From contig JADHLI010000019.1 in assembly GCA_016780775.1 (NCBI GenBank), positions 1 through 36,379 of the forward strand: a DNA stretch of 36,379 nucleotides. Reading direction: 5' to 3'. Of the stretch, positions 2,637 to 20,200 are shown in pieces. The stretch is from Alphaproteobacteria bacterium. Its GTDB lineage: Bacteria; Pseudomonadota; Alphaproteobacteria; Puniceispirillales; Puniceispirillaceae. The translations under genes were made by a program, and so were the position numbers. Positions within the stretch are counted from its first letter, which is position 1; each line of letters opens with the position of its first letter. The notes under the pieces are model-generated. The model was not told where the DNA came from, did not search any database, and saw only the letters and a program-made list of their open reading frames with translations.

Positions 2637-3045
2637 ATCCAGTAATGAACACTTGCCCTTTTGCAGGAATGACACGCAAATGATCGCCTGTGGTGATAAG
2701 CTGCGTGACATCGCCATCCGCAAATCTATCTACCATCGCTAAATTGGCCAACGCTGCGCCTTGCGCCAAAATAGTGTTGGCCTGATTAAACAAAATAGCT
2801 TTGGGGGCTATTTGGCGCGAGGTCATCTCATACAACATCCACGCTGTAGCCACGCCGCCTTTAGCAGTGTTAAGTACCAGGATCATATCCTGATAACTCT
2901 GGCCGTATAATTTATGCTGGGGTCTTGAGAACACCCCCTTGAATCTATCTAGGTCATAGCGTGCAGAAAAATTATCATCAGCAACTAGCGCTATCCCCTC
3001 AACTGTGGGGCCAATTCCGACATGACAGCAAAGCTCTGTTGTCAT
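2635..3045 (-). CDS. Aconitase X small subunit (swivel domain, DUF126)
   Basis: A 136-residue protein matching the DUF126 swivel domain that forms the smaller half of aconitase X enzymes: the GIGPTVEG start, the HKLYGQSYQDMILVL core, and the C-terminal TTGDHLRV segment. With the large subunit encoded just upstream it should form a cytoplasmic Fe-S hydro-lyase. Known members act as cis-3-hydroxy-L-proline dehydratase or mevalonate-5-phosphate dehydratase. The ATG overlaps the large-subunit stop by 4 bp (3042-3045), indicating translational coupling. The loop that usually reads G-[KR]-G-S with a catalytic serine reads AKGGVATAW here, so the serine appears replaced by glycine; this may mark a subfamily with a different substrate. 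Confidence 0.8.
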   Translation of the reverse strand: MTTELCCHVGIGPTVEGIALVADDNFSARYDLDRFKGVFSRPQHKLYGQSYQDMILVLNTAKGGVATAWMLYEMTSRQIAPKAILFNQANTILAQGAALANLAMVDRFADGDVTQLITTGDHLRVIPAKGQVFITG

Positions 3046-4277
3046 TGTACAATCTCCCCTTTTTCAGCAGACGCAATACAGGCTTCCATGCTAGCTAGCG
3101 CAGGTTGATAGCCATATCCGCCGAGAATATTAACAATCTTTGCGGAATTACTTAGCAGCCTTACCCAGCCATTTGCCTCCCCTATCTCCCGGGCATATTG
3201 CTGATAAAAACAGGTGCCAACCAGAACCCTGCCGCCAAAGGCTTCGATAGCGCTAATATAGCCCATGGCAGTCGCATCGCTATAGACTTGAGAAGAGGTG
3301 CAGACAATCACATCTGTGGTTTCTGAGCGTTGTCTGCCACCGCATAGGCTGGCGAGCTGGCCCATCTCCACAAGGCTCAGTTGCGGGGCAGCAAACACCA
3401 CTACATCTACAGCTTCGCCCTTAGCATTGAAGGGCTGTTTCAGAGTAGCAGTCGCGTTATCATCAATCTCAGTCACATTAAGGATATCACCGCCCACATC
3501 TGCTAGCACTCGGCATTCAGGCGTTATGCCAACGATGTGAAATAAGGGAGTTGAGCCGTAGCTGGCCATAGCCGCGCCAAAATGCTTTAGCTGGTCAGAG
3601 GTAGGTGCTGCTTCAATTCCTTCAATTACCGGCACTTCCCAATAGCTGCCTGCCATCCGGCCAATGGTTGCTCCTAGCACGCCCCATTCCATCAAATCTT
3701 GAGGTGTTTTTGTAACGTGGTAGCGTCTGCTAGCTTGCCGGTGCACATCCAGATGCAAGCCATAGCGCGGAGTGCGCCCAGTTAGCCCAGCTGCTAGCGC
3801 AGAAGGCCCACCTTCAAAATTTGACCGTGCCCCGCAAACAGAGTTGGAATAAATCACCACGCCGGTATCACCATAGGCTACATGATCACCAAATACTGGT
3901 GGCATAATCGTCTGGTAATTGATGCAAGTGTTAGTCATCATAATGCCTATCTCTTGGCAGGCAGCAACAAAACGGCGTTCCAGATTTGCCATACCTTCGT
4001 TCTGGCCAATAGGCGCGTAGCAAGATAAATCCACCCCGCGCGGGTCAGTGATCATTGGGATGCAGACCTTAGCGCCATCTGCGGCTAATTTTTCGGTAAA
4101 ATTAACACCAGCTTCCCCAAGCGATTCCGGGTCTGCCATCATATGTGCTTGGCTAACCTGAACCATATCTTCGGCATCAAACATGCGGCCAACCTGCAAC
4201 TGATGTTCTATTGCCCACTTAACAGCTGGCCCTGCCTCACCAAACAGCATAGCCTTTTCATCGTCTCTTAATTTCAT
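3042..4277 (-). CDS. Aconitase X large (catalytic) subunit, DUF521
   Basis: A 411-residue protein of the aconitase X catalytic family. Three cysteines stand where the family ligates its Fe-S cluster: C118 (NTCINY), C148 (SVCGARSNFEGGP) and C356 (VGTCF). The motif CGARSNFEGG and the following HLDVHR segment are typical. The enzyme should dehydrate or hydrate a small hydroxy acid; in bacteria cis-3-hydroxy-L-proline dehydratase is the best-characterised activity, while the name reflects similarity to aconitase. It precedes the swivel subunit with a 4-bp overlap. A PrpF/GalD-like isomerase and TcuAB-like genes lie a few kilobases away, which makes an aconitate-like substrate possible, but no proline racemase or ornithine cyclodeaminase-like gene is visible nearby. 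The substrate is unresolved. Confidence 0.85.
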   Translation of the reverse strand: MKLRDDEKAMLFGEAGPAVKWAIEHQLQVGRMFDAEDMVQVSQAHMMADPESLGEAGVNFTEKLAADGAKVCIPMITDPRGVDLSCYAPIGQNEGMANLERRFVAACQEIGIMMTNTCINYQTIMPPVFGDHVAYGDTGVVIYSNSVCGARSNFEGGPSALAAGLTGRTPRYGLHLDVHRQASRRYHVTKTPQDLMEWGVLGATIGRMAGSYWEVPVIEGIEAAPTSDQLKHFGAAMASYGSTPLFHIVGITPECRVLADVGGDILNVTEIDDNATATLKQPFNAKGEAVDVVVFAAPQLSLVEMGQLASLCGGRQRSETTDVIVCTSSQVYSDATAMGYISAIEAFGGRVLVGTCFYQQYAREIGEANGWVRLLSNSAKIVNILGGYGYQPALASMEACIASAEKGEIVQ

Positions 4278-4921: not shown

Positions 4922-5821
4922 ATGACAGTACAAAAACCAGTTAACACTATTGCTATTTTAATGCCTGGTGATATGGGGCATGGCTGTGCAGAAAGCCTTT
5001 TGAGACATGGTTTTCGGGTGATAACTTGTGTTGCTGGACGCAGTGATAGGACAAAATCACTTGCCAAAGTAGCAGGTATGGAGATGCTGGTAAAGTTGGC
5101 GGAAGTGGTGGAGAAGGCTGATCTTATCTTGTCTATTTTGCCGCCCCAATTTGCATTAGATATGGGTGTGCAGATTGCTGAAATTATGCAAGATATTAAC
5201 ATCTATCCAGATTATGCAGATTGTAATGCCATTTCCCCGCAAACTGCCCAGCAGCTAGAAGATGTTTTTGCGCCACTTCCGGCCCACTTTATCGATGGTG
5301 GCATAATTGGTTTTAACCCTATTAAAGAAGAGGGTAAGACACGGCTTTATGTCAGTGGGCCAAATGTTTCCTCTATCTTGCAACTACATGAAAGGGGGCT
5401 GGTGGTTAAATCGGTGGGGGATAAAATCGGACAAGCCTCGACGATGAAAATGGTGTATGCCAGTGCCACCAAAGGCGCTTTTTCGCTATTTGCTTCTGTT
5501 GCGGTAATGGCTGAATTAACAGGCTTGCGAGACCAATTATTTGAAGAGTTCTCTGCGAGCAAGCCAGATATTTTGAAAAATATGCAGATGATGGTGCCGC
5601 GCATACCTGTAGATGCAAGCCGCTGGATGGCAGAGATGGACGAAATTTCTGCAACCTTTGCTGGTTTTGGTATGAGCCCAAAATTTCATCAAGGCGCAAG
5701 GGAGCTAATGGAATTGGCAAATAAAACACCGCTTGCCAGCGAAACACGTGAAACCCTGCCAGATAACCTCAATATTAATGATGTGCTGGATATGTATGTT
5801 AGCGCGTTAAAGAATAGCTAG
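4922..5821 (+). CDS. NAD(P)-dependent dehydrogenase, beta-hydroxyacid/DUF1932 type
   Basis: A 299-residue protein of the 6-phosphogluconate-dehydrogenase-like superfamily. The N-terminal Rossmann part begins AILMPGDMGHGCAESL, a variant of the usual GxGxMG nucleotide loop, followed by the ADLILSILPP strand and the DGGIIG motif. The C-terminal half (GQASTMKMVYASATKGAFSL onward) matches the DUF1932 helical domain of putative phosphogluconate dehydrogenases. The lysine in STMKMVYASATKG is the likely catalytic residue. It probably oxidises or reduces a small hydroxy acid. It is transcribed away from the small membrane-protein gene and is followed after about 50 bp by another small membrane protein. 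The substrate is unknown. Confidence 0.8.
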   Translation: MTVQKPVNTIAILMPGDMGHGCAESLLRHGFRVITCVAGRSDRTKSLAKVAGMEMLVKLAEVVEKADLILSILPPQFALDMGVQIAEIMQDINIYPDYADCNAISPQTAQQLEDVFAPLPAHFIDGGIIGFNPIKEEGKTRLYVSGPNVSSILQLHERGLVVKSVGDKIGQASTMKMVYASATKGAFSLFASVAVMAELTGLRDQLFEEFSASKPDILKNMQMMVPRIPVDASRWMAEMDEISATFAGFGMSPKFHQGARELMELANKTPLASETRETLPDNLNINDVLDMYVSALKNS

Positions 5822-6246: not shown

Positions 6247-7536
6247 TTAGAGCCCAAAAAATAGTTGTAAGCCAGCCCCTATTACAGCGCTGCTTAAGAG
6301 AATGCGGATAATGCCCCATTTTAGATAAAAGGTGAGAACCGCACTAATGGCAAATAGGCCAAGTGCTACCCCCTCAAGGCTGGTTAATTCTGGCTGCCAT
6401 AGCGTAAGAGGACCAAGCTTATGCAGCTCAATTTCGGCAAAAAATACATGTAAGGCAAACCAAAGTGACAGATTCAATATTACGCCCACAATGGCGGCAG
6501 TGATCGCCTCTAATGCCCCCGCAATACGCGGCTGGTTGGAAATCCATTCAATATAGGGCGCACCAGTAAAAATCCATAAAAAGCAGGGTATAAACGTTAC
6601 CCATAATACAACTATCGCGCCGCTCAGACCGAGCCATATGCCACCATCCTTGAACCCAGCGAGAAAGCCAACAAATTGGGTAACCAGTATAAGTGGGCCG
6701 GGCGTGGTTTCTGCTAGCCCGAGCGCATCTACCATTTCCGGGGCGCTAAGCCAGCCAAAAGCCCCCACAGCATCTTGTGCCAGATAGGCCAAAACTGCAT
6801 AAGCACCGCCAAAGGTTACAATCGCTAGGATTGAGAAAAACCGGCCAATTTCAATAAGGATTTCAGGGGCACCAAACAGAGTTAACCCAGCTAGTGGCGC
6901 AAGCCAAATAACCATCCAGATCAATATGGTTTGTCCTGTTTTTCTGGCAGAGAGATGTGCCAGCTCAGTTGGCTGTTGGGTCTTTGACTTTCCTAGCATT
7001 AGCCAGCCGAAAATAGCAGAGGCAAGTACAATAACTGGAAATGGAATGGATAGGAAAAAGATAGAAACAAAGGCAATGCCTGCTATCAGCCAATGAAAGG
7101 GGAAAAACAGGGCTTTATGGGCAATGCGCAACAGAGCCTGCATCACAATGACTAAAACAGCGGCTTTAACGCCATAAAAGAAAAGGGCAAAGATCGGAAC
7201 ATCTCCATAAATGGCATAGCTTGCCGCTAGAGCCATGATTACAACTGCGCCGGGCAGAACAAATAATAACCCCGCTATCAGTCCGCCTAGCGTGCCATGT
7301 AGTCGCCATCCAGCATAGGTAGCAAGCTGCATAGCCTCTGGGCCAGGAAGTAGCATACAAAAGCTTAGCGCGTTTAAAAACTGGCTTTCCGAGAGCCAAT
7401 TGCGTGTCTCAACCAGTTCGCGGTGCAGCAGCGCTATTTGCACCGCGGGACCACCAAAAGACAAAATGCCTATCTTCCACCACAGATAGGTTGCTTCGCC
7501 AAGGGTGGGGGTATCATATTTGTGCGATTTGCCCAT
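6247..7536 (-). CDS. chrA: ChrA-family (chromate ion transporter superfamily) membrane protein
   Basis: A 429-residue, very hydrophobic protein with the two homologous halves of long-chain CHR transporters. The first half has the hallmark FGGPAVQIALLHRELVE and LPGPEAMQLATYAGW motifs (about residues 25-75); the second repeats them as FGGAYAVLAYLAQDAV and ETTPGPLILVTQFVGF (about residues 240-290). About ten membrane spans are expected. Characterised members extrude chromate, sometimes in exchange for sulfate, from the cytoplasm. No chrB regulator or other metal-resistance gene is nearby, so in this organism it may handle another oxyanion. The divergent neighbour is the PrpF/GalD-like gene 233 bp away, and the minus-strand terminator at 6072-6100 lies downstream. 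Confidence 0.85.
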   Translation of the reverse strand: MGKSHKYDTPTLGEATYLWWKIGILSFGGPAVQIALLHRELVETRNWLSESQFLNALSFCMLLPGPEAMQLATYAGWRLHGTLGGLIAGLLFVLPGAVVIMALAASYAIYGDVPIFALFFYGVKAAVLVIVMQALLRIAHKALFFPFHWLIAGIAFVSIFFLSIPFPVIVLASAIFGWLMLGKSKTQQPTELAHLSARKTGQTILIWMVIWLAPLAGLTLFGAPEILIEIGRFFSILAIVTFGGAYAVLAYLAQDAVGAFGWLSAPEMVDALGLAETTPGPLILVTQFVGFLAGFKDGGIWLGLSGAIVVLWVTFIPCFLWIFTGAPYIEWISNQPRIAGALEAITAAIVGVILNLSLWFALHVFFAEIELHKLGPLTLWQPELTSLEGVALGLFAISAVLTFYLKWGIIRILLSSAVIGAGLQLFFGL

Positions 7537-7769: not shown

Positions 7770-8840
7770 ATGCAAGTCGCAACCCCCTTTATCTTTATGC
7801 GTGGTGGTACTTCGCGTGGGCCATATTTTAACAAAAAAGATGTGCCAGAAAATCGTGAAGCATTGGCCGAATTTCTGGTGAAAGCGGTTGGGTCAGGACA
7901 CCCCATAAATATCGATGGGATCGGCGGCGGTGTTGCGGTGACAACCAAGGTAGCTATGCTGTCAAAGTCTGAAGATGAATGGGCAGATATTGATTATTTT
8001 TTTGCTCAAGTAAGTGTGGAAACAAAGCTCGTAGATTTCAAACCAACTTGCGGCAATATCCTCTCTGGTGTAGGCCCAGCAGCCATAGAGATGGGTCTGT
8101 TTAGGCCGATAGGTGATATTGCTGAGGTAAAGATTAGAGCTGTTAATACTGGTGCTAGAATATTGGCGCGTGTGCAGATGCAAGATGGCCAACCACGCTA
8201 TGAGGGCAGCGCCCAGATAGATGGGGTGCCGGGGTCGGCTGCACCTGTGGAGCTGAATTTCATGAATGTTGCTGGCTCTTCAACAGGGGCGTTTTTGCCA
8301 AGCGGTAATCTGATCGATAGTTTTGAGGGGATAGAGGTCACTTGTATGGATGTCGCGATGCCAATGGTAATCGCAAGAGCCGCTGATTTCAGGCTTACAG
8401 GTACCGAGACGCGCGATGAGCTAGATGCCAATCGTGATTTTTTTGCCAAGATGGAAAAAGTACGGCTTGCGGCAGGTACGGCAATGGGCATGGGGGATTG
8501 CAGCCGTTCTGTGACCCCAAAGTTTGGCTTGTTATATCCGGTTGAGGGAGTAGGGCATATTGGTGCACGCTATTTCATGCCGTGGGAGACACATCCAACT
8601 ATGGCAGTTACTGGTTCACAGGCGCTGGCTTCTTGTGCGCTAACCCCTGGCACTATCGCGGACGCAATGATGACTATTCCAAATGAACGTCCAGCCAAAA
8701 TTGCTTTACACCATCTGATGGGTGAGATGGATGTGCTGATTGATTATGAGATGGTTAATGGCCAGTTTGTGCATAAATCTGCAGGTCTGGTGCGCACCGC
8801 ACGCAAGCTGGCACAAGGCGATTTATTTGTCCCTGCTTAG
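7770..8840 (+). CDS. PrpF-family isomerase (4-oxalomesaconate tautomerase/GalD-like)
   Basis: A 356-residue protein of the PrpF family. These enzymes have a diaminopimelate-epimerase-like two-domain fold and shift double bonds in methylaconitate, aconitate or 4-oxalomesaconate. Diagnostic motifs are MRGGTSRG (residues 10-17), DGIGGG (49-54) and KPTCGN (91-96). K60 and C94 match the lysine and cysteine acid-base pair described for PrpF. Length and the MGDCSRSVTPKFG and PWETHPTMAVTGSQ segments fit GalD-type members best. The ATG at 7770 has TAGGAG about 10 bases upstream. No gallate dioxygenase, prpC or acnD is present; TcuA/TcuB-like genes and aconitase X are, so an aconitate-type substrate is favoured by context. 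Confidence 0.8.
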   Translation: MQVATPFIFMRGGTSRGPYFNKKDVPENREALAEFLVKAVGSGHPINIDGIGGGVAVTTKVAMLSKSEDEWADIDYFFAQVSVETKLVDFKPTCGNILSGVGPAAIEMGLFRPIGDIAEVKIRAVNTGARILARVQMQDGQPRYEGSAQIDGVPGSAAPVELNFMNVAGSSTGAFLPSGNLIDSFEGIEVTCMDVAMPMVIARAADFRLTGTETRDELDANRDFFAKMEKVRLAAGTAMGMGDCSRSVTPKFGLLYPVEGVGHIGARYFMPWETHPTMAVTGSQALASCALTPGTIADAMMTIPNERPAKIALHHLMGEMDVLIDYEMVNGQFVHKSAGLVRTARKLAQGDLFVPA

Positions 8841-8850
8841 AACGTCGAGC

Positions 8851-9957
8851 TTAGGCCCCTTTGGTATCTGGGCCTTCTTTATTGTCTGGTAGGCGTTTGG
8901 CAATAAATGACATAGCAAAAATTAATGGGATAATACGTACCGTGTGATGGAAGGCTACAAAAGCTACATCAAAGCCAAAAATCAGCGCCAACAGTGTAAC
9001 CTCGTAAAGCCCGCCAGGCACGAAGGCAAGCCACAATTCTAAGAAGTTAAATCCTTCCATCATCGCCATAATTAGCGCTGCTATAATGAACAGGCTGAGG
9101 ATGATCACGGTGTTTATTAACGCATCCTTCAGATAGCCAAAAACTTCTTGAAAGGGGACTTTTGCTAGCCGTGCGCCAATCGCCCCGCCAATGGCTAATT
9201 GTGCTAAAATGACAAATTCATTTATGCGCGGCAGATCCGCCCAGCCCATCAAATGAAATAGAATGGACAGGCACATAGGCCCCAAAAGATAGGGCAAGGG
9301 TAGGCGCAAAATGAAGGCGAGCCCAAGCCCCAACACAGCGATAAAGATAAACAAGCCTAAATCAAAAAGGTGTAGATCAAAAATGCTAGGCATGCTGGCT
9401 AGGGTGCGGTTAGAGGTGGCCACCGCATCTCCGCCCTGAATAAAGGCCAGCAAGAGCGGTGTAGACAAAAACACAACAGTTACCCGCACCAGATGAAATA
9501 GCGCGACCACATAGTCTTTTTCAACAAGCTGGCGCGCTAATATCAGGGCTTCTGCTTGGCCGCCTGGCAAAGAGCAGAAAAATGCCAATCTTTTATCATA
9601 ACCCCGCCATTTGGTTAGCAACTGATATCCGGTCATACAGACAATAAAGGTGGTCACCATCATTACACATAGGCTTTTCCACCAAATTGTAATTTGCAGC
9701 AACATCTGCTGGTCAAATGCTGCGCCGATCATCACCGCCAGGCCTAAAATGACGGGAATATGAAACCAGCGTGCAACGCCCAGATAAGGCTGGATCGGGC
9801 GCAGCAGGGCGCCGCCAAACCAAACTCCAAACAAGCTGCCCATTAGAAAGGGGGCAGGCATGCCAGCTTGAAAGAACAGCCAGCCTGTTGATAGGGCTAG
9901 GGCAAAGGTAGCGCCCATTTTTACCAGATCATCAAGAAACACATAAATTGAGGGCAT
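8851..9957 (-). CDS. AbrB-family integral membrane protein (putative transporter)
   Basis: A 368-residue polytopic protein of the membrane AbrB family (often misnamed ammonia monooxygenase or AbrB regulator). Two internal repeats are visible, each with the PAPFLMGSLFGVW / LPYLLGPMCLSIL type motif (about residues 33-46 and 220-235). The CSLPGGQAEAL and FVPGGLYEVTLLALIFG pairs near residues 135 and 320 are characteristic. About ten membrane spans are predicted. The family's function is not well established; members often sit with tricarboxylate or aromatic-acid catabolism genes and are presumed to be carriers. It follows the GntR regulator by 9 bp on the same strand, so the two form an operon, which makes a role as uptake or efflux carrier for the regulator's ligand reasonable. 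Confidence 0.75.
   Translation of the reverse strand: MPSIYVFLDDLVKMGATFALALSTGWLFFQAGMPAPFLMGSLFGVWFGGALLRPIQPYLGVARWFHIPVILGLAVMIGAAFDQQMLLQITIWWKSLCVMMVTTFIVCMTGYQLLTKWRGYDKRLAFFCSLPGGQAEALILARQLVEKDYVVALFHLVRVTVVFLSTPLLLAFIQGGDAVATSNRTLASMPSIFDLHLFDLGLFIFIAVLGLGLAFILRLPLPYLLGPMCLSILFHLMGWADLPRINEFVILAQLAIGGAIGARLAKVPFQEVFGYLKDALINTVIILSLFIIAALIMAMMEGFNFLELWLAFVPGGLYEVTLLALIFGFDVAFVAFHHTVRIIPLIFAMSFIAKRLPDNKEGPDTKGA
8853..8882 (+). terminator. Terminator of the PrpF-like gene
   Basis: AGGCCC (8853-8858) pairs with GGGCCT (8870-8875), followed by TCTTTATT, giving a compact hairpin with a T-rich tail 12 bases after the plus-strand stop. It overlaps the last codons of the convergent AbrB-type gene, so those codons double as a terminator. 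Confidence 0.5.
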
Positions 9958-9966
9958 GTTTCAGTC

Positions 9967-10791
9967 TTAATCCATCTGCGGGTGTTCTGCCTGACTGATC
10001 AGGTGCAGGCGCGCTATTAGGCCAGCTTCCAGATGAACACGCATCGCCTGCTCAGCCGCATCTGGCTTGTTCTTCTGGATGGCGATATTAATTTTTTCAT
10101 GTTCTGCCAGAATATTGGCAAGGCGGGTTTCCATACTATAGACGGTTGCGCCCAACAATACCATCATTTGTAATAATTGGTTAAGTTGTTCTTCAAGGAA
10201 GTGATTGCCAGATGCCTTGCAAATACTGGCATGAAAGCGTCGGTTATGTTTGGCGAGAATTTCAGGAGAAGCATTGTTTTCTATCAATGATTTTTCTTCT
10301 GCTAGCAGCTGGTCAATAAAATGCCGTTCTCCGGGAGTGGCGCGCTGGGCAGATAGTTTGGCGGCCAGCCCTTCAAGTGTGCCGCGTAACTCATACAGGC
10401 TGCGAATATCGGCCCATGCCAGCTTGCGCACACGCAGCCCCTCATTGTCTACTTCCAGAACACGTTCTGTTTTTAGCTGCGTTAGTGCCTCTCTTAAGGG
10501 GGTGCGGCTAACATGTAAGGCTGAGCCTAATTCAACTTCTTTCAGACGCATGCCAGGCCAGATAGCCCCGCTATGCAAGCCAGCAAGGATAAGGGCACGA
10601 ATACGCCCCACACTGCCAGTGCCTAAATCATTGCTTTGGCTTATAGGTGATCCCTCTAGTTCAGCTTCTAGCTGCTGCCAGTCGATTTGCTCAGCAGGGC
10701 TCATCCCATTTGTAGATGTAACTTTTGCTGGTTTAAGTTTAGATAAATGTGATTTAGGTGTTTTTTTTGGTGCCAAATCTGTCTCTTTCAT
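9967..10791 (-). CDS. GntR-family transcriptional regulator, FCD subfamily
   Basis: A 274-residue regulator. Residues 60-125 form the winged helix-turn-helix, with recognition helix VSRTPLREAL (94-103). Residues 130-262 form the all-helical FCD ligand domain, whose metal-binding histidines are probably H187 (NRRFHASI), H231 and H253 (RVHLEAG). FCD proteins usually bind small organic acids and repress neighbouring catabolic genes. The first 55 residues are an unusually long polar, lysine-rich lead; a start at M30 (10702-10704) is possible. It heads an operon with the AbrB-type gene and faces the TcuA-like gene across a very short gap holding two TGTATACA palindromes. On the minus strand a CATAAT -10-like box lies 16 bases before its ATG, so those palindromes would cover its own promoter, suggesting autoregulation. 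Confidence 0.85.
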   Translation of the reverse strand: MKETDLAPKKTPKSHLSKLKPAKVTSTNGMSPAEQIDWQQLEAELEGSPISQSNDLGTGSVGRIRALILAGLHSGAIWPGMRLKEVELGSALHVSRTPLREALTQLKTERVLEVDNEGLRVRKLAWADIRSLYELRGTLEGLAAKLSAQRATPGERHFIDQLLAEEKSLIENNASPEILAKHNRRFHASICKASGNHFLEEQLNQLLQMMVLLGATVYSMETRLANILAEHEKINIAIQKNKPDAAEQAMRVHLEAGLIARLHLISQAEHPQMD

Positions 10792-10817
10792 TGACTATTT
10801 ATGCGATTATGGCTTAG

Positions 10818-10836
10818 TTGTATACAAATGTATACA
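10818..10836. promoter_or_regulatory. Double TGTATACA operator, probable GntR binding site
   Basis: Two copies of the perfect palindrome TGTATACA lie at 10819-10826 and 10829-10836, offset by exactly 10 bp, one helical turn. The first extends to TTGTATACAA. TTGTATACAA-like palindromes are known targets of FCD-type GntR regulators, and such a regulator is encoded immediately to the left. The site overlaps the beginning of the TcuA-like reading frame and lies just upstream of the regulator's own start, so one protein could shut both operons. Confidence 0.7.
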
Positions 10837-12240
10837 AAAAATGGAAATACCGAAGATATTCTCTGGGATGTACTGGTTATTGGGGCTGGAAATGCGGGCC
10901 TCTGTGCTGCTATTACGGCTGCAGAGGCCGGATGTTCGGTACTGGTCCTAGAGGCAGCACCGCCAGATATGCGCGGCGGCAATACGCGCCATACTCGCAA
11001 TCTTCGCGCAACCCATGATGCCCCTACCGATGTGTTAATCGAAAGTTATTCGGTCGCCGAATATTTTGATGATTTGATGCGCGTGACCAAGGGTGTGACC
11101 AATCAGGAATTGGCGACCTTGACACTCGAAAAATCAGCTGAGCTTACGCGTTGGCTTGGCACCAGAGGAGTGCGCTTTCAACCTGCTCTTAGCGGTACCC
11201 TTAATCTTGGTCGCACAAATGCCTTTTTCCTAGGCGGTGGTCGCACGATGCTGAACAGCCTATGCCGACATGCAATAAATTGTGGGGTGGAGTTTTTATA
11301 CCAGACCCCAGTCCAAGAGATGCAGCTAGAAGACGGGTTTTGTGAAGGCGTGTTACTTGAAGATGGTCGTCGTTTCAGGGCAAAGAAAACTATTGCGACT
11401 TCAGGCGGTTTTGAGGCCAATCTGGATTGGCTGTCCGAAGGTTGGGGTAATGCCGCACAGAATTTTCTAATCCGGGGCACGCCTTATAATAAAGGGGTGG
11501 TGCTGAAAAGCTTGCTGGCGCGGGGAGTGAAATCGATTGGTGATGTAGATCAATGCCATGCGGTGGCAATAGATGCACGCGCACCGCAATTTGATGGTGG
11601 AATTGCTAGCCGGATTGATGCGGTGCCATTCAGTGTTGTTTTGAATAAAAATGGTGAGCGTTTTTATGATGAAGGGGAGGATTTCTGGCCAAAACGTTAT
11701 GCCATTTGGGGGCGTCTGGTTGCAGGACAGCCAGATCAAATTGCCTATGCTATTGTTGATGCGCATGGCCTGACCCGTTTTATGCCTTCTGTCTTTACCC
11801 CGATTAAAGATGATACGATAGCCGGGTTAGCCGGCCAACTAGGATTAGACCCCGCCAAGATGCAAGCGACTATCGCAGGCTTTAATAAGGCTTGCCCTGA
11901 AGGGCCTATTGACCAGCAAATTTTAGATGGCAAGAAAACAGCTGGGCTTAGCCCGAACAAAACCAACTGGGCCGCGCCCATAGCTAGCCCGCCTTTTTAC
12001 GGTTTTCCGCTGCGCCCAGGTATAACCTTCACTTATATGGGCGTGGAGGTGAATGCGCGCGCCCAAATGCTGATGGAAGATGGCAGGCCGGCAGCAAATC
12101 TCTATGCAGCAGGCGAGATTATGGCAGGCAATATTTTGGGGCAAGGCTATTTAGCAGGTATCGGAATGACTATCGGCAGCGTCTTTGGGCGTATCGCGGG
12201 GGAAGAGGCGGCGCGTGCCTTAAATAGGGGCCTTAAATAG
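10828..12240 (+). CDS. tcuA: FAD-dependent tricarballylate-dehydrogenase-like protein (TcuA family)
   Basis: A flavoprotein of about 470 residues in the fumarate reductase/TcuA family. The dinucleotide-binding motif is VLVIGAGNAGLCAAITAAEAG, followed by the GGNTRHTRN FAD motif; the C-terminal part has the substrate and FAD segments PGITFTYMGVEVN and YAAGEIMAGNILGQGYLAGIGMTIG. TcuA oxidises tricarballylate to cis-aconitate using FAD, passing electrons to TcuB. The next gene (13 bp downstream) is a TcuB homologue. The frame is open from an ATG at 10801; the ATG at 10828 is chosen because it gives a more usual length, but neither has a clear ribosome binding site, and the 10828 start codon lies inside the GntR operator. 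A nearly leaderless transcript is possible. Substrate may be tricarballylate or a related acid. Confidence 0.8.
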   Translation: MYTKNGNTEDILWDVLVIGAGNAGLCAAITAAEAGCSVLVLEAAPPDMRGGNTRHTRNLRATHDAPTDVLIESYSVAEYFDDLMRVTKGVTNQELATLTLEKSAELTRWLGTRGVRFQPALSGTLNLGRTNAFFLGGGRTMLNSLCRHAINCGVEFLYQTPVQEMQLEDGFCEGVLLEDGRRFRAKKTIATSGGFEANLDWLSEGWGNAAQNFLIRGTPYNKGVVLKSLLARGVKSIGDVDQCHAVAIDARAPQFDGGIASRIDAVPFSVVLNKNGERFYDEGEDFWPKRYAIWGRLVAGQPDQIAYAIVDAHGLTRFMPSVFTPIKDDTIAGLAGQLGLDPAKMQATIAGFNKACPEGPIDQQILDGKKTAGLSPNKTNWAAPIASPPFYGFPLRPGITFTYMGVEVNARAQMLMEDGRPAANLYAAGEIMAGNILGQGYLAGIGMTIGSVFGRIAGEEAARALNRGLK

Positions 12241-12253
12241 GGAATAGTTTTAA

Positions 12254-13399
12254 ATGGATGAGATTAATCTGGTAGAGATGGCTAAAGCTAAGCCGAGTGA
12301 TAAGCGCCCATATGACCAAAACGCGCATGATGAGACTGCGCGCATCATGCAAATTTGTAACGCTTGCCGCTATTGCGAGGGATTTTGTGCGGTCTTTCCA
12401 GCAATGACGCAGAGCCGTGAATTTGATGTAGCTGATACCGCCTATCTAGCTAATTTATGCCATCATTGCGGGGCGTGTTACTATGCCTGCCAATATGCCC
12501 CGCCACATGAGTTTGGCGTGAATGTACCGGCAGTGCTAGCTGAAAGGCGCGCTGAAACCTATGCTGATTATGCATGGCCGCGCCCACTAGGTCAGCTATT
12601 TGCGCGTAACGGTCTGGTTGTTTCTATGGCCATTGTGGCTGGGTTAGCTATCACATTAGGGCTGATGCTTGCGATGATAGCCCCGCATCTATTTTGGGGG
12701 GTGCATTTAGGTGAAGCGGCTTTCTATCAGGTGATGCCGCATAATGTGATGGCAGGAATACCGCTTGTTATAACCGCATTTACATTATTGGCGATGGGCA
12801 TAGGGGCGGTGCGTTTTTGGCGCGATGTTGGCGCAGGCTGGCCAGGTTGGCAGGGCTTAACTGAGGCAATATCTGCGGCAGGAAGCTTGAAATATCTAGG
12901 CGGGGATAATGCTGGGGACGGCCCTGGCTGTCCGGTAGGCGATGATAGGAACAGCCATAACCGCCGCCATGCCCATCATCTGACATTTTATGGTTTTATG
13001 TTGTGTTTTGCTGCCACGTCAACAGGGACAATTTATCACTATGTTTTTGGCTGGCAGGCACCTTATGGCTATTTCAGCCTGCCGGTAATTTTAGGCACAG
13101 TGGGCGGGGTGATGCTATGCTGGGGTACCGCGTGGCTGTGGCAGCTTAAACGTGCGATGGCTGAGGAGATGAAAAGCTTGCGCCATCTGGGTATGGATTA
13201 TGCCTTTATCTGGCTATTATTCTGGGTCAGTGCAACTGGATTAGCTCTGCTGGCTTTGCGTGAGACAGGCTTGATGGGGCTAATGCTGGCTATCCATTTG
13301 GCACTAGTTTATGTATTATTTCTGGTGTTGCCCTATTCTAAGTTTGTGCATAGCTTATACCGCTCCATTGCCCTTATCCTCTATTCGGTAAAGCGGTGA
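12254..13399 (+). CDS. tcuB: TcuB/CitB-like iron-sulfur membrane protein
   Basis: A 381-residue protein. The N-terminal cytoplasmic domain has two CxxCxxCxxxC clusters (C35-C38-C41-C45 and C69-C72-C75-C79), ligands for two [4Fe-4S] centres. A membrane domain of about six spans follows (from about residue 115), with several histidines (for example the NRRHAHHLTFYGF stretch) that could bind haem. In Salmonella, TcuB takes electrons from the FADH2 of TcuA and delivers them to the quinone pool. The gene starts 13 bp after the TcuA-like gene and is surely co-transcribed. Length and layout match TcuB. The pairing itself is the strongest evidence for the function of both proteins. Confidence 0.85.
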   Translation: MDEINLVEMAKAKPSDKRPYDQNAHDETARIMQICNACRYCEGFCAVFPAMTQSREFDVADTAYLANLCHHCGACYYACQYAPPHEFGVNVPAVLAERRAETYADYAWPRPLGQLFARNGLVVSMAIVAGLAITLGLMLAMIAPHLFWGVHLGEAAFYQVMPHNVMAGIPLVITAFTLLAMGIGAVRFWRDVGAGWPGWQGLTEAISAAGSLKYLGGDNAGDGPGCPVGDDRNSHNRRHAHHLTFYGFMLCFAATSTGTIYHYVFGWQAPYGYFSLPVILGTVGGVMLCWGTAWLWQLKRAMAEEMKSLRHLGMDYAFIWLLFWVSATGLALLALRETGLMGLMLAIHLALVYVLFLVLPYSKFVHSLYRSIALILYSVKR

Positions 13400-13517
13400 G
13401 GGACGCCTTCATTATCTTGCTATCGGATGTCTTTATTATTGACCGCGGATAGGCGGGTAGGGCAGTTTGTTGCCAACAGTTTTGCCCCTATCCTTTCTTG
13501 CATCTGGCGTCTTTTTT

Positions 13518-14420
13518 ATGCTCTCTATTTTAGGTAATGATATTTTGCCAGTTTTCTCAGTTTTAGTGCTGGGGTTCTTGCTTGGCAAAATAAAGCTGGT
13601 ATCGCGCGAAGAGGCTAGTGCCCTAAACCGGGTCGCTTTCCTTGCTTTACAGCCGCCGCTGATATTCTTGCTGCTTAGTCAGGTTGATTTATCCTCTATC
13701 CATTATCTTGCCATCCTCAGCTATGGGGCAGGGCAAGCGATTATCTTCACCCTTTCCTATCTGCTCTGCCGCTATGTTTTAGGGCATGAGATGATGGAGA
13801 GTTGGCTTTTAGCTATGGCGATGATTTTTGTGAACTCGCTGTTATATATCTGGCCGATATCTACGCTGATTTATGGCGAAGCTGGCAATATTCCCATCGT
13901 TGCGATTGTGGCGTGGGATGCGGCAATTACCTTTGCTTTTTTTGTTATTTCCACTGATGTGCTAGCGCATAAAACCGCTTCTGTTGCGGCTTCTATCAAA
14001 CGGCTAGGGAAAAACCCGGTGTTGTTGACTATTATCTTTGCCCTTATTTTTAATCTGTCAGGCCTGCCTTTGATAACGCCGGTAAAGACGGCCCTTAATT
14101 TTCTTAGCGGGGCAACTGCACCTGCAACTCTGTTTGCGCTAGGGGTAATTTTATCGGCAACCAGCTTGATGCCATCGCGCACCGTCTGCCTGCTAACAGG
14201 TATAAAGCTGTTTGGTCTACCTGTGCTAATTGCCGGTATATTGATGGCCGGAAACTGGCCCGCAGATTGGAACAAGCTGCTGGTGTTAAACGCGGCTGGT
14301 CCGGCTGGTGCGATGCCTTTTGCTATTGCGATGTTATATGGGGTTAGCACCGCACGTATCGCGCCTATCATCATCTGGACATCATTACTTTCCTTGTTCA
14401 CCCTAGCTTGGCTAGCTTGA
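13518..14420 (+). CDS. AEC-family transporter (auxin efflux carrier/malonate-permease type)
   Basis: A polytopic membrane protein of 300 residues from the ATG at 13518; TTG codons upstream (13467, 13470) extend the frame but the ATG start MLSILGNDILPVFSVLVLGF matches the family N-terminus better. The features are about ten spans in two five-span halves, a conserved LNRVAFLALQPPLIF segment in helix 2, and the C-terminal LNAAGPAGAMPFAIAMLYGV segment. AEC proteins move malonate, malate, auxin or other organic acids. It follows tcuB by about 120 bp on the same strand and replaces the MFS carrier TcuC found in Salmonella, so it is the likely carrier of this operon. The direction of transport cannot be told. 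Confidence 0.75.
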   Translation: MLSILGNDILPVFSVLVLGFLLGKIKLVSREEASALNRVAFLALQPPLIFLLLSQVDLSSIHYLAILSYGAGQAIIFTLSYLLCRYVLGHEMMESWLLAMAMIFVNSLLYIWPISTLIYGEAGNIPIVAIVAWDAAITFAFFVISTDVLAHKTASVAASIKRLGKNPVLLTIIFALIFNLSGLPLITPVKTALNFLSGATAPATLFALGVILSATSLMPSRTVCLLTGIKLFGLPVLIAGILMAGNWPADWNKLLVLNAAGPAGAMPFAIAMLYGVSTARIAPIIIWTSLLSLFTLAWLA

Positions 14421-14449: not shown

Positions 14450-15373
14450 TTAATTAGGCTTATATTTAGAACCTTTACTTAGGCGCGGAGCATCCAGCTG
14501 GTTTAGATCGCAATGCACATCTAGCATCGCTGAGAAATCATCCCCGCCAAATCCGCGCGAGCGTGCAAGGTTAAATGCTTCGCGCGCAGCAGCGGCCATG
14601 GGCATAGAAACTGCCTGCGTATTTGCTGCTTCAACAACCAGGCTTAAATCTTTATGGGCTAAATCAATGGTAAAGCCAGGCGCTTTATCATCACTCAGCA
14701 CCTTGGCAGGCCAAGCTATTTTTAGCTGGCCATTAACAGCTGTAGTGCCATAGAGCACATCTAGCGTGCTATCTAGATCAAGGCCAAAACCACTAGCTAG
14801 TGACAGGGCTTCAGCATTCATCTGGCAATAGGAAATCGCGAGGAAATTATTCACCAGCTTGGTACGGGTGCCAGCCCCTTGGCCGCCGCAATGAAAGATA
14901 TCACTGCCCATCAGCTTCAATAGGGGCAGGACGCGTTGATACCCAGCTTCTGTGCCGCCAACCATAAATAAAGACTGGCCGGCATCGGCATGCGAGGCTA
15001 GCCTTCCAACTGGCGCATCGATAAAATCAATGTCCTTGTCTGCGCAGCAGCCAGCGATAAAATCAGTAGTTTCTGGACTAACCGTGCTCATATCCATGAC
15101 CAATTGGCCTTTTTTTGCATAGCTTAAAATTGCGTCTGCACCACCTGAAACCACCTCGCGAACAATGGCGGAATTGGGTAGCATGGTAATCAGGATATCT
15201 GATTTTTCTACAACCTCAGCCACAGAGCTACAGCTTTGCCCACCTTTGGCAATGGCCGCCTCTAGCTGACTGGCTACCACGTCATAGACATGAAGCTCAT
15301 AGCCCCCCTTCATGATATTGGCTGCCATTGGCAACCCCATGCGCCCTAGCCCGATAAAACCGATTTTTTCCAT
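14450..15373 (-). CDS. Beta-hydroxyacid dehydrogenase, YihU/sulfolactaldehyde-reductase-like
   Basis: A 307-residue NAD(P)-dependent dehydrogenase. It has the nucleotide loop GFIGLGRMGLPMAANI (residues 5-20), the DAPVGR substrate loop (119-124) and the catalytic Lys in TKLVNNFLAI (K172). The long stretch around WPAKVLSDDKAPGFTIDLAHKDL (about 220-240) resembles YihU, which reduces 3-sulfolactaldehyde, more than GarR or hydroxyisobutyrate dehydrogenase. YihU binds the sulfonate through Arg123, Asn174 and Ser178 (from published structure, recalled); here R124 and N175 are kept but the serine position is A179. The reaction could be reduction of an aldehyde or oxidation of a 3-hydroxy acid with a sulfonate or carboxylate. 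It is divergent from the aldolase-sulfatase operon with 156 bp between. Confidence 0.75.
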   Translation of the reverse strand: MEKIGFIGLGRMGLPMAANIMKGGYELHVYDVVASQLEAAIAKGGQSCSSVAEVVEKSDILITMLPNSAIVREVVSGGADAILSYAKKGQLVMDMSTVSPETTDFIAGCCADKDIDFIDAPVGRLASHADAGQSLFMVGGTEAGYQRVLPLLKLMGSDIFHCGGQGAGTRTKLVNNFLAISYCQMNAEALSLASGFGLDLDSTLDVLYGTTAVNGQLKIAWPAKVLSDDKAPGFTIDLAHKDLSLVVEAANTQAVSMPMAAAAREAFNLARSRGFGGDDFSAMLDVHCDLNQLDAPRLSKGSKYKPN

Positions 15374-15532
15374 AGCACCTACCCTTAGCTTTTGAAAATA
15401 TATTATTTTTTGCTTATGGCATTTATAATGCTATGGGATGGGCTTTCTTGCCAAATGATTTTTAAGTTGACTTATCTAGCCCCTGCCCAAATCATTTTAA
15501 CGTGCAGGTCATAACAAAATAAAGGGGCAGTG

Positions 15533-16345
15533 ATGTTGGATTTAGGCGGACGTGAATCAATTTATCAGCCAGAACAAGAAGGGCTCATTTTCCCAGAGCG
15601 GCCAGAAAACCTCTCTATAGAAGAGGAGCGAAAATATCGTAAAGAAAGGCTGGTTGCCGCTTGCCGTGCTTTTGCTATCCAGAAATTTGATTATGGTTTT
15701 GCAGGTCACGTGACTGTGCGCGATCCAGAACATCCAGCGCTTTACTGGACTAATCCTATGTGCGTGCATTTTGACAAGGTGAAAGTCTCGAACCTTATCC
15801 TAGTTGACCATGATGGCAAGGTTATCGAAGGCGATTATGCGGTGAACCGGGCGGGGTTTGTTTTGCATGCCAATGTCCATGAAGCGCATCCTGATATTAT
15901 TGCTATGTGTCATGCCCACACAACCTATGGCACCGCATGGGCGGCAACTGGCCGACCTATTGAGCCGATTACACAAGATGCTTGCGCCTTTTTTGAAGAC
16001 CATGTGGTTATCGGTGATGAAGCTGGTGCGGTAGCAGTAGAAAACCATGCTGGCTCGAATGTAGCTACGGCCTTTGCCGGTGTGAAAGCTGCTTTGCACC
16101 AAAATCATGGTCTGCTAACCGCTAGCCGCCATAGTATAGATGCAGCGGCTTTCTGGTTTATTGCGTTGGAGCGTTGTTGCCAGCAACAGCTCGATATAGC
16201 GGCAAGTGGTATTGACCCGATTTATATCTCACCAGAGCGTGCGCGCTATAGCCGCGAGCATGTGGGAAGTGAATATATTGGCTGGTTGCATTTCCAGACA
16301 ATCTGGAACCAGCTGATTGAAGATGCCCCAGATATGTTTGATTAA
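15533..16345 (+). CDS. Class II aldolase/adducin-family protein
   Basis: A 270-residue protein of the fuculose-1-phosphate-aldolase/adducin fold. The metal-binding histidines are visible in AMCHAHTTYG (H127 and H129, numbered from the ATG at 15533) and HQNHGLLT (H192), with E118 in VHEAHPD as catalytic acid candidate. An in-frame GTG directly precedes the ATG; AAAGGGG lies upstream. Such enzymes cleave or decarboxylate phosphorylated or plain hydroxy-oxo compounds, or act as non-catalytic adducin-like proteins. It is followed after 23 bp by the sulfatase-type gene and is thus in one operon with it. This implies that the sulfatase product, or a downstream product, is split here; that step is inference. 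Confidence 0.8.
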   Translation: MLDLGGRESIYQPEQEGLIFPERPENLSIEEERKYRKERLVAACRAFAIQKFDYGFAGHVTVRDPEHPALYWTNPMCVHFDKVKVSNLILVDHDGKVIEGDYAVNRAGFVLHANVHEAHPDIIAMCHAHTTYGTAWAATGRPIEPITQDACAFFEDHVVIGDEAGAVAVENHAGSNVATAFAGVKAALHQNHGLLTASRHSIDAAAFWFIALERCCQQQLDIAASGIDPIYISPERARYSREHVGSEYIGWLHFQTIWNQLIEDAPDMFD

Positions 16346-16368
16346 AAAATCTGTTTGGAGGGCTGTTA

Positions 16369-18036
16369 TTGCCTAAATCTGGGAAAAAGAACATCCTGTT
16401 CTTAATGTTTGATCAGCTACGATTTGACTATTTAAGCTGTTATGGGCATCCGCATCTGCATACCCCTAATTTAGACTGGCTTGCCTCAAAAGGGGTGCGC
16501 TTTACCAATTGCTATGTACAGTCGCCTATTTGTGGTGCTTCGCGTATGAGCTTTTATACAGGCCGCTATGTAAGCTCGCATGGCGCGGCATGGAATGGCT
16601 TTCCGTTGAAGGTTGGCGAGATGACAATAGGGGATCATTTACGCGGGCTAGGCGGTGATGCGTATCTTATTGGCAAGACGCATATGCGTGCAGATGCCAA
16701 AGGTATGGAACGGCTGGGCTTAACGCCCGATAGTGTCATTGGCGCGCGGGTGGCAGAATGCGGCTTTGATATTTTTGTGCGTGATGATGGGCTATGGGGT
16801 ATGGGCCCCGATGGCGCTTATGATGAGCAGGCTTCTGCCTATAACCAATATTTGCGCGATAAGGGCTATGAGGGCGATAATCCATGGCATGATTTTGCGA
16901 ATGCAGGTTTGGATCAGGATGGGGATATCGCCTCTGGCTGGCTCTATGGGAACAGCCATTTGCCAGCTAATATAGCAGAAGAGGATTCAGAAACGCCGTG
17001 GCTTACGCGTGAGGCTATCAAGTTTCTCAAAGAAAAGGCAGATAGTGACAAGCCGTGGTTGTGTCATGTCAGCTACATCAAGCCGCATTGGCCATATATT
17101 GTGCCTGCGCCTTATCATGATATGTATGGGCCAAACAGCTTTCTTGCGCCTATCCGTGATAGAGCAGAGCTGGATGTCCCGCACCCTATCTATGCCGCCT
17201 TTACCCAGAACGCTATTGGCAAGGCGTTTAGCGATACAGAAGTGCGCGAAAAAGTGCTAGGCGCCTATATGGGGCTAATTAAACAAATAGATGATCAGAT
17301 GGGGGTCTTGTTTGACTATCTGAAATCTTCTGGCCAGATGGAAAATACAATGATTGTCGCTACCTCTGACCATGGGGATTATTTGGGCGATCATTGGCTA
17401 GGGGAAAAGGATTTATTTCATAACCCTTCTGTGAAAGTTCCGCTGATTATCTATGACCCAAGCGCAGAGGCAGATACTGGCCGTGGCAGCGTATGTGATG
17501 CATTGGTAGAAGCAATAGACCTTGCGCCGACTTTTACTGATTTTATGGCAGGCAGGGTTGCTGATGAATGGCTAGAAGGTCGGTCGCTGATACCGCTCTT
17601 GTCTGGAAAGCCGCCGCATGATTGGCGCGATTATGTAATAAGCGAATATGATTATTCCATGTCCCCAATGGCTGCTAAGCTGGGGGTAGCACCTAAGGAT
17701 GCAAGGCTATTTATGGTTGCAGATTATAGCTGGAAGCTTGTCCATTGCGAAGGCGGTTTGCCGCCAATGCTGTTTGACCTAAAAGAAGATCCCAGTGAGC
17801 TTAATGATTTGGGGTGCCATCCTGATTATCATGAGGCAAGACAGCATTGTTATGCGATGTTGCATGACTGGGCACTTCGGTGCCGTCAGCGGACCACCTT
17901 AAGCACGCGTGAGATACTTTCAAATCGCGGTAAGTCGCGGCGTAAGGGGATTATATTGGGGCTTGCACAAGCCAGCGATGCAGAGGCAGAAATTCTTGAA
18001 AAATATACAGGGAAACCCCCGGCTAGGCCTATTTAA
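16369..18036 (+). CDS. Sulfatase / phosphonate-monoester-hydrolase family enzyme
   Basis: A 555-residue hydrolase of the alkaline-phosphatase superfamily with no signal peptide, so cytoplasmic. Metal ligands begin at D15 (LMFDQLR). The active-site motif is C55-G-A-S-R59 followed by TGR, the form in which the cysteine is converted to formylglycine. Later motifs are SYIKPHWPYIVPAPYH, TSDHGDYLGDHWLGEKDLFHNPSVKVP and the C-terminal SEYDYS. The long central insert with the NPWHDFANAG and SGWLYGNSHLPA segments is typical of a sulfatase/phosphodiesterase branch rather than choline sulfatase. The start is TTG at 16369, supported by GGAGG 8 bases upstream; the next in-frame ATG would remove the D15 metal ligand region. 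Linked to aldolase, TRAP and YihU-like genes, which fits uptake and hydrolysis of a small sulfate or phosphonate ester. Confidence 0.85.
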   Translation: MPKSGKKNILFLMFDQLRFDYLSCYGHPHLHTPNLDWLASKGVRFTNCYVQSPICGASRMSFYTGRYVSSHGAAWNGFPLKVGEMTIGDHLRGLGGDAYLIGKTHMRADAKGMERLGLTPDSVIGARVAECGFDIFVRDDGLWGMGPDGAYDEQASAYNQYLRDKGYEGDNPWHDFANAGLDQDGDIASGWLYGNSHLPANIAEEDSETPWLTREAIKFLKEKADSDKPWLCHVSYIKPHWPYIVPAPYHDMYGPNSFLAPIRDRAELDVPHPIYAAFTQNAIGKAFSDTEVREKVLGAYMGLIKQIDDQMGVLFDYLKSSGQMENTMIVATSDHGDYLGDHWLGEKDLFHNPSVKVPLIIYDPSAEADTGRGSVCDALVEAIDLAPTFTDFMAGRVADEWLEGRSLIPLLSGKPPHDWRDYVISEYDYSMSPMAAKLGVAPKDARLFMVADYSWKLVHCEGGLPPMLFDLKEDPSELNDLGCHPDYHEARQHCYAMLHDWALRCRQRTTLSTREILSNRGKSRRKGIILGLAQASDAEAEILEKYTGKPPARPI

Positions 18037-18045
18037 ACCTTGCCT

Positions 18046-19542: not shown

Positions 19543-20165
19543 GCTTGCTCCTGTTCTTTTGATAATCTGTTTGGCCGGCCAGAGAGCAGCGCAATACCTT
19601 CATAATAGACCCTGCAAATGGCAACAAAACCAGCTACATATGCCATTATTAAAGCCGCAGCATAGCCATACCAAATGGGCAATTCCAGCAGGGCGGTTGT
19701 CTCATGGCTACGATATTTATCGCCCAACCCATTGCCTAATTGCCACGCTACCAGAATAAGGGTCAGGGCAAAGATGATTTCGATGATGAACATCAAAACG
19801 CTTTGGAAGCTTGTTGGCATTTTATCGGTGAAGATAGCCACGATGGCATGCCCTGCCTGTAATTGGCATAACGGCATAAAGGCAAAAATAACCCCTGCCA
19901 TTCCAGCTTCTAAAAGCTCGTAATCACCCATGATGGGGCCTATCCCAGCTTCGATCAAAAAACTGGCTAGGTCTGGCGCTATATTTTGAACAAGCTCTGA
20001 ATGCAAAAAACTATTCAGCACCCGCCCTGCAACCGAAAAGCATGTAAGGCTAATAAGCGTGGCCAGCATAAACCCGCCAATGAGGCTGGTGAGGCGTGAA
20101 ATCTGTGTAACAAAACCTATCATAGGCGGATTGATCACTCTAAATCCAAGGGCAAGTTTGCCCAT
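19539..20165 (-). CDS. dctQ: TRAP transporter small permease, DctQ type
   Basis: A 208-residue membrane protein with four hydrophobic segments (about residues 28-50, 72-100, 128-150 and 170-195), in line with DctQ four-helix subunits though somewhat longer than the usual 160-180 because of an N-terminal lead of about 25 residues. The EIIFALTLILVAWQLGNGL segment fits the family's third helix. DctQ holds the large permease in the inner membrane and is needed for transport. The gene lies 35 bp after the binding-protein gene and its stop overlaps the DctM start by 4 bp, giving the standard P-Q-M order. Substrate is unknown. Confidence 0.8.
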   Translation of the reverse strand: MGKLALGFRVINPPMIGFVTQISRLTSLIGGFMLATLISLTCFSVAGRVLNSFLHSELVQNIAPDLASFLIEAGIGPIMGDYELLEAGMAGVIFAFMPLCQLQAGHAIVAIFTDKMPTSFQSVLMFIIEIIFALTLILVAWQLGNGLGDKYRSHETTALLELPIWYGYAAALIMAYVAGFVAICRVYYEGIALLSGRPNRLSKEQEQA

Positions 20166-20200
20166 TTATAACCAGCAAGGACAGGCATGGATGATGTGAA

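Follow-up and report, generated by a model that had tools for sequence, protein, structure and literature searches.

The closest described relative of the locus considered here is the tcu system of Salmonella, in which, going by the titles of the pertinent references, TcuA oxidizes tricarballylate, TcuB passes on the electrons, and cis-aconitate is the product of the TcuA reaction. The classic gene order, tcuR-tcuA-tcuB-tcuC, is seen on the Escherichia coli plasmid NZ_LR890509.1. A further point of reference is offered by the aconitate isomerases: according to the available portion of one report, TarA and TbrA are PrpF-superfamily proteins with demonstrated aconitate isomerase activity (PMC11495376), and an excerpt of another describes Adi1 of Ustilago as an aconitate isomerase and lists an oxalomesaconate tautomerase of Pseudomonas putida as a related protein (PMC4720413). 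Here we describe a locus at positions 7770-14420 of a 36,379-nucleotide stretch of DNA, called the window in its full length, from an alphaproteobacterium of the family Puniceispirillaceae (contig JADHLI010000019.1 of assembly GCA_016780775.1; contig C5 of a 2.2-Mb genome, G000, that is 99.6% complete). We consider it fairly probable that this locus encodes a tcu-type tricarboxylate catabolic module, in which an AbrB-family protein would serve import, TcuAB oxidation, a PrpF-family protein the isomerization of trans- and cis-aconitate, and a GntR-type protein control. It is a relative of the Salmonella tcu system with other carriers and another regulator, and not a new kind of system.

Open reading frames (ORFs) and family scans recovered, at or near the same positions, every gene named in an earlier sequence-only reading of this DNA, including its central observation that a PrpF/GalD-like isomerase, AbrB and AEC proteins, a GntR/FCD regulator, and the TcuA-TcuB pair are packed together. 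The gene for the PrpF/GalD/YbhH-type isomerase (7770-8840, + strand; PF04303, 309 bits), a transcription unit of its own, converges on that for the AbrB membrane protein (8851-9957, - strand; PF05145, 198 bits). The latter follows, 9 bases behind and on the same strand, the gene for the GntR/FCD regulator (9967-10704, - strand, in an ORF opening at 10791; PF07729, 90 bits, and PF00392, 45 bits), with which it likely forms one operon. Divergent from the regulator gene run tcuA (10828-12240, + strand, in an ORF opening at 10801), tcuB (12254-13399, + strand), and the gene for an AEC-family carrier (13518-14420, + strand, in an ORF opening at 13467; PF03547, 74 bits). Because of where the genes of relatives start, the true starts of gntR, tcuA, and the AEC gene likely lie at 10704, 10828, and 13518, inside the listed ORFs. 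Compared with the sister species G067, the module genes are 87-94% identical, with ratios of nonsynonymous to synonymous substitution (dN/dS) of 0.04-0.10, pointing to purifying selection.

The assignment to a tricarballylate/aconitate-type module, already made in the sequence-only reading, is supported by TcuA, a predicted FAD-dependent tricarballylate dehydrogenase that exceeds both curated cut-offs (NF006130, 640 bits with a cut-off of 369; TIGR02485, 562 bits with a cut-off of 373). It is 55% identical to TcuA of the E. coli plasmid and retains 170 of the 173 residues invariant among six other TcuA proteins, that of the E. coli tcuRABC system included. Among its closest relatives are proteins of records labelled SAR116 cluster bacterium (L006, 77% identity) and Candidatus Puniceispirillum (L009, 68%; L031, 66%), and the remaining members of the best seven belong to records labelled Alphaproteobacteria. 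TcuB, a membrane Fe-S protein, passes one of the two TcuB models, the equivalog TIGR02484 (506 bits, cut-off 247) and displays two CxxCxxCxxxC cysteine motifs for Fe-S clusters, like E. coli TcuB. Family membership thus makes a strong case that TcuA oxidizes tricarballylate and that the electrons pass through TcuB to the membrane.

The same genome has a second tricarboxylate locus on contig C30 (L087, G000:C30:63001-75021), comprising a histidine kinase-response regulator pair, TctC, TctAB, an isopropylmalate dehydrogenase (IPMDH)-like protein, a second PrpF, and a TcuA-like flavoprotein. The last passes NF006130 (527 bits, cut-off 369), does not pass TIGR02485, and deviates at 30 polar positions that do not vary among six true TcuA proteins; the genome has a single TcuB match.

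We searched 136 genomes of the order, of which 31 have a TcuA over the cut-off and 96 have a PrpF. Linkage was counted in 33 genomes whose TcuA match exceeds 300 bits, a set that includes fragments and two matches just under the cut-off; G080, whose sole match is of the paralogue type (276 bits), was left out. Since many assemblies of the set consist of short contigs, some linkages will have escaped detection. PrpF is found in 32 of the 33; in 14 of them, spread over 8 genera, its distance to TcuA is no more than 10 kb. The expectation by chance is roughly 2% per genome (an estimate that takes about two PrpF genes per 2 Mb, for genomes that are related and not independent), and the linkage is more than chance. 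Of 20 loci taken from this set, 18 have a true TcuA (L107 and L108, with only a divergent TcuA-like protein, were set aside); within 12 kb of TcuA these contain AbrB and GntR in 17 cases, PrpF in nine, and TctA in six. The module, for whose co-occurrence in genomes the sequence-only reading had suggested a search, is conserved in relatives. In all 17 loci that have them, AbrB-GntR are divergent from TcuA-TcuB, and this core recurs as a unit in marine Alphaproteobacteria of the SAR116 type. The complete genome G077 (L091) unites in one cluster TctE-TctD, TctC, TctAB, IPMDH, PrpF, a D-2-hydroxyacid dehydrogenase (2-HADH), AbrB, GntR, TcuA, and TcuB; in the window genome a comparable set is divided between C30 and the window, the window part being without 2-HADH. 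Among the best 80 TcuA loci of a public genome collection (match threshold 75 bits; 39 loci of at least 20 kb, many on short contigs), TcuB is present in 79, GntR-type regulators in 29, TctA in 24, and PrpF and AbrB in 14 each. In four loci with the core and no PrpF beside it (L089, L092, L009, and L031), inspection by eye pointed to a GMC-type oxidoreductase gene adjacent to tcuB or a short way from it, and to a histidinol-dehydrogenase-like gene in the vicinity.

AbrB is likely a tricarboxylate carrier, because its predicted model (12 sequences; predicted local distance difference test score 88.5; predicted template-modeling score 0.85) shares its fold with AspT, an antiporter, and CitS, a citrate symporter. 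When VIA, a second aligner, re-scored Foldseek's own list, the model matched AspT with a Z score of 23.7 and citrate-bound CitS with 22.5, over 333 of 368 residues, the next family following at about 13. Foldseek alone gave weak matches (best E value 1e-3, to NHA2; template-modeling score to CitS up to 0.56) and ranked sodium/proton antiporters at the top. An excerpt of a published classification likewise groups PF05145 in the CPA-reentrant fold with the 2-hydroxycarboxylate carriers, with 5a1s as template (PMC8396727). This template is the structure of a citrate symporter. The shared fold is no proof of substrate; it does make the family name 'AbrB' a misleading one for a membrane protein with a predicted carrier fold, and records from Pseudosulfitobacter, Alloyangia, Shinella, and Paracoccus marcusii label such proteins as transcriptional regulators. 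The AEC protein is 92% identical in the sister species (dN/dS 0.065), is near TcuA in one of the 18 order loci, and occurs in none of the best 80 TcuA loci; it is a lineage-specific last gene after tcuAB, of uncertain role. TcuC, the major facilitator superfamily (MFS) carrier of the classic system, was not found in 11 genomes, G000 included, in a search whose positive control worked with three. This supports the view, expressed from the sequence alone, that a GntR-type protein takes the place of the LysR regulator here and that there is no MFS carrier.

Control by the GntR/FCD protein is suggested by a pair of tandem palindromes at 10818-10837, where TTGTATACAA (10818-10827) adjoins ATGTATACAA (10828-10837), the second containing the likely tcuA start codon. 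With at most one mismatch, the 10-base palindrome has just these two, side-by-side matches in the window. Shuffled sequences yield 1.2 matches on average, with at least two in 29 of 100 shuffles; as the count is within chance, the case rests on adjacency, place, and conservation. In the 2.2-Mb genome, the tandem pattern, with two mismatches allowed, is found in one place, with no mismatch there; a reversed control pattern also gives one match per strand. Two copies of TGTATACA at a 10-base spacing mark the tcuA start in seven of 28 related loci (L003, L005, L006, L008, L089, L090, and L095), and a single copy is present in ten. The paralogous C30 locus has no full palindrome match, its two one-mismatch matches being no more than chance. 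On these grounds the tandem palindromes are likely an operator of the GntR protein.

The solved structures nearest to the window PrpF are YbhH, followed by LigU. In the alignment, K60 and C94 of the window protein stand opposite K66 and C100 of LigU (K66 being replaced by Met in 6p3h), which we take to be the catalytic residues. By motif, the same pair corresponds to K73 and C107 of SoPrpF, so that the window protein has both the PF04303 domain and the Lys and Cys required in SoPrpF. The available part of the SoPrpF study reports that variants at these two positions could not sustain growth when propionate was the only carbon source (PMC5690661). In a quick tree of 48 PrpF rows (branch support by the Shimodaira-Hasegawa-like approximate likelihood ratio test only), the window protein falls in a 26-row clade (support 99). 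In 25 of these rows TcuA and/or TctA are nearby, and in the 26th, L126, a TctC-like gene; most rows were collected through TcuA, so that nearness to TcuA is expected in them. A separate clade of seven rows (support 99) holds all four LigK-linked proteins. Nine TcuA-near PrpF proteins (L023, L034, L046, L061, L065, L082, L111, L112, and L118) lie outside the window clade. Some of these are on long branches, the placement of L023, L046, L082, L112, and L144 being unsure; taken together, they suggest that PrpF has probably been recruited next to TcuAB more than once. From its sequence and setting, the window PrpF is a probable aconitate (delta/cis-trans) isomerase. Since cis-aconitate, as the TcuA product, would need no isomerase, the likelier task of PrpF is to bring trans-aconitate into the route or to recover the trans isomer.

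Other occurrences of PrpF merit mention. In another family of the order, L128 (4810-10982) and L129 (4472-10644) show a gene row AbrB-PrpF-IPMDH with no TcuAB in the stretch, together with enoyl-CoA hydratase, CoA transferase, and hydroxymethylglutaryl-CoA-lyase-like genes (reading frames judged by eye), which indicates that AbrB and PrpF also keep company outside tcu loci. The archaeal Haladaptatus plasmid NZ_CP111041.1 (L144) has a TcuA-like protein, 35% identical to that of the window, together with TctC, TctB, TctA, and PrpF; the stretch contains no TcuB. A record titled Oceanobacillus (L010, WNWL01000007.1) has a tcu/tripartite tricarboxylate transport (TTT) locus whose PrpF lies among alphaproteobacterial proteins; the label may be wrong, or the locus may have been transferred. 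The weakest of the listed plasmid matches of PrpF, hoped to be a Bacillus aconitate isomerase, turned out to be an unrelated Priestia cluster.

Outside the order, the arrangement histidine kinase-response regulator-TctC-TctAB-PrpF-universal stress protein-2-HADH-AbrB-GntR-TcuA-TcuB is found on plasmids of Pseudosulfitobacter pseudonitzschiae and Alloyangia pacifica, and Paracoccus marcusii has a rearranged version, AbrB included. The Pacificitalea version has no AbrB in the stretch read. In Thalassospira marina, GntR-TcuA-TcuB adjoins histidine kinase-response regulator-TctC-TctAB-PrpF-IPMDH, again with no AbrB in the stretch. Plasmids of roseobacters, Paracoccus, and Thalassospira therefore unite TcuAB, GntR, and PrpF with TTT genes. 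In Shinella, TcuA adjoins the aconitase AcnA, AbrB and GntR stand at a distance of a few genes, and PrpF is remote; Paracoccus yeei, Martelella, and Methylobacterium have TcuAB with no PrpF in the stretch read. PrpF stands beside TcuAB in further orders too, and in Campylobacterota (L082). The variant composition is real and widespread. The sequence-only reading had called it new. This holds to the extent that the listed open-access literature matches include no bacterial PrpF-TcuAB or AbrB-TcuAB module; as to kind, the locus is still a relative of the tcu system.

The course of events that we favor would run as follows. AbrB, with its predicted elevator fold, would import tricarballylate and/or aconitate, the AEC protein acting as a second, lineage-specific carrier. 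TcuA, with FAD, would oxidize the CH-CH2 bond of tricarballylate to give aconitate, and the Fe-S clusters of TcuB would hand the electrons to membrane acceptors. PrpF would interconvert trans- and cis-aconitate, such that trans-aconitate, whether imported or formed as a by-product, reaches the cis isomer. Ordinary aconitase, which converts cis-aconitate to isocitrate, would complete the route into the citric acid cycle. The GntR/FCD protein would repress, or otherwise regulate, both divergent units from the tandem sites overlapping the tcuA start.

Several observations weigh against this reconstruction. The second TcuB model, the subfamily model NF011607, is matched with 456 bits, under its cut-off of 524. 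PrpF forms a separate unit that has no operator copy, and its top-scoring model is that of an oxalomesaconate tautomerase. In 19 of the 33 genomes (some on broken contigs) no PrpF lies so close as 10 kb to TcuA, and one of these 19, G087, has no PrpF match at all; TcuAB can therefore work without PrpF. The exact tandem is confined to the seven loci listed above, and 11 of the 28 have no TGTATACA in the stretch; of these, L009, L092, L093, and L100 (L009 and L100 being one genome) have altered copies by eye. Finally, a 2-HADH occurs within 12 kb of TcuA in 12 of the 18 order loci and an IPMDH-like protein in three; a plain tricarballylate route has no need of these recurrent dehydrogenases and does not explain them.

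In a rival reading, the same architecture serves another tricarboxylate, for example one of the C7 homoaconitate type or an alkylated one, with PrpF shifting the double bond and the IPMDH-like protein or 2-HADH finishing the route. Such a scheme would fit the closeness of PrpF to LigU, an oxalomesaconate isomerase whose substrate is itself a C7 tricarboxylate, the partner dehydrogenase on C30, which scores best against isopropylmalate/homoisocitrate dehydrogenase models (below their cut-offs), and the presence of 2-HADH in 15 and IPMDH in six of the best 80 TcuA loci. However, the near-complete set of invariant TcuA residues and the absence of both IPMDH and 2-HADH from the window speak against the scheme, and we regard it as unlikely, if worth keeping in mind. 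A smaller chance still attaches to PrpF being a chance or unrelated neighbor in the window, the module consisting of AbrB-GntR-TcuAB-AEC only. Its convergent, operator-free unit agrees with this, as do genus g5 and G064, which have the core and no PrpF beside it; on the other side stand the linkage in 14 of the 33 genomes and the fact that PrpF also adjoins TcuAB in Campylobacterota and further orders. For a role of PrpF as oxalomesaconate tautomerase/isomerase of aromatic (protocatechuate 4,5-cleavage) catabolism, one may point to its 428 bits against NF033377 (GalD), just below the cut-off of 440, which its 72% identical C30 paralogue passes with 458. Nevertheless, the window genome has no LigK over the cut-off (best 90 of 304.5 bits), and where LigK does occur in the order, as in G064 and G094, it adjoins a different PrpF that groups in the other clade. 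With the window PrpF in a clade separate from the LigK-linked proteins, we rejected the oxalomesaconate pathway as highly improbable.

Two further proposals fare worse. The sequence-only reading had envisaged a single line in which a tricarboxylate is imported and oxidized by TcuAB and the product is isomerized by PrpF and hydrated by aconitase X (AcnX; small swivel subunit, 2635-3045, - strand; large subunit, 3042-4277, - strand), a gene indeed close by, 3.5 kb from PrpF. AcnX occurs in 60 of the 136 genomes and in 23 of the 33 with TcuA, yet lies within 10 kb of TcuA in only one of the latter, namely, the window's own; it is in none of the 18 order loci within 12 kb of TcuA and in none of the best 80 TcuA loci. 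In the sister species G067, AcnX sits on contig C59 with two of its window neighbors (nucleoside-kinase-like and thiamine pyrophosphate enzyme genes), and the module, with the DUF1932 dehydrogenase, is elsewhere, on a contig that continues beyond DUF1932 into other genes. Moreover, characterized AcnX proteins are cis-3-hydroxyproline or phosphomevalonate dehydratases, not aconitases. Being unlinked in relatives and of other function where characterized, AcnX was rejected as the hydration step and is very unlikely to be a module member; the line as a whole has hardly any probability left. Isomerization of a cis-aconitate product, too, would be needless, and what survives of the line is a use of PrpF for trans-aconitate. 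Least probable of all is that TcuAB is a CobZ-type cobalamin enzyme, as the name CobZ_N-term of TIGR02485 might suggest: CobJ was found neither in the window genome nor in six more of the 11 TcuA genomes tested. We therefore rejected this role.

The DUF1932 NAD-binding dehydrogenase (4922-5821, + strand), which the sequence-only reading had also counted in and which does lie close by, probably does not belong to the module. Both it and AcnX lie beyond a chromate transporter gene (6247-7536, - strand) as seen from the module, and the window type of DUF1932 protein is near TcuAB in one of the 18 order loci, its linkage being limited to the sister species. Its identity to the DUF1932 protein that adjoins TcuAB in Pacificitalea (L141, 11577-12440) is 24%, and a 41% identical relative of the latter is near TcuAB in L008/L094 (one genome). 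Because of these last proteins, such a dehydrogenase may genuinely belong to the module elsewhere. Dehydrogenases 36-43% identical to that of L141 recur near PrpF in L115 (2113-2997), L120 (2469), and L130 (5479), and such proteins occur in LigK loci as well as beside TcuAB in Pacificitalea. On its other side, at 14450-21292, the module adjoins genes for a HIBADH-type dehydrogenase, a class II aldolase, a sulfatase-like protein, and a TRAP transporter, a set that the sister species shares as far as the stretch L090 reaches.

More generally, these findings offer a testable function for two misleadingly named families, the PF05145 'AbrB' proteins and the GalD-like PrpF proteins beside TcuAB, in abundant ocean bacteria, and suggest that these organisms truly use tricarballylate or aconitate as a carbon source. 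They also correct the tempting, poorly supported inclusion of aconitase X. A bolder and rather doubtful extension would have PF05145 proteins as CitS-like tricarboxylate carriers and the TcuAB-PrpF-IPMDH/2-HADH clusters of SAR116 and roseobacter lineages as a dedicated marine pathway whose substrate is a tricarboxylate distinct from tricarballylate.

Comparison with known systems sets the locus apart on several counts. With the oxalomesaconate isomerases GalD and LigU, and with YbhH, the window PrpF shares its subfamily and the conserved Lys and Cys, and differs in that its clade is separate from that of the LigK-linked PrpF proteins and its genome has no LigK over the cut-off. The TctDE/TctCBA tripartite tricarboxylate transport system is joined to the module, with its two-component pair, in the relatives L091, L095, L109, L110, and L118, whereas no TTT genes lie beside the window module, the TTT set being on C30 with its own PrpF. 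The Bacillus tar/tbr trans-aconitate systems, likened here without a comparison of the TarA sequence, likewise place a PrpF-superfamily aconitate isomerase beside a carrier, and in tar beside a regulator too; in the available text these are of the MFS and LysR types, and the term 'tcu' does not appear in it (PMC11495376). Finally, with tcuRABC of Salmonella and the E. coli plasmid, the window locus has in common TcuA and TcuB and the gene order tcuA-tcuB; where that system has the LysR-type TcuR and the MFS carrier TcuC, the window locus has a GntR/FCD regulator, AbrB and AEC proteins, and a nearby PrpF.

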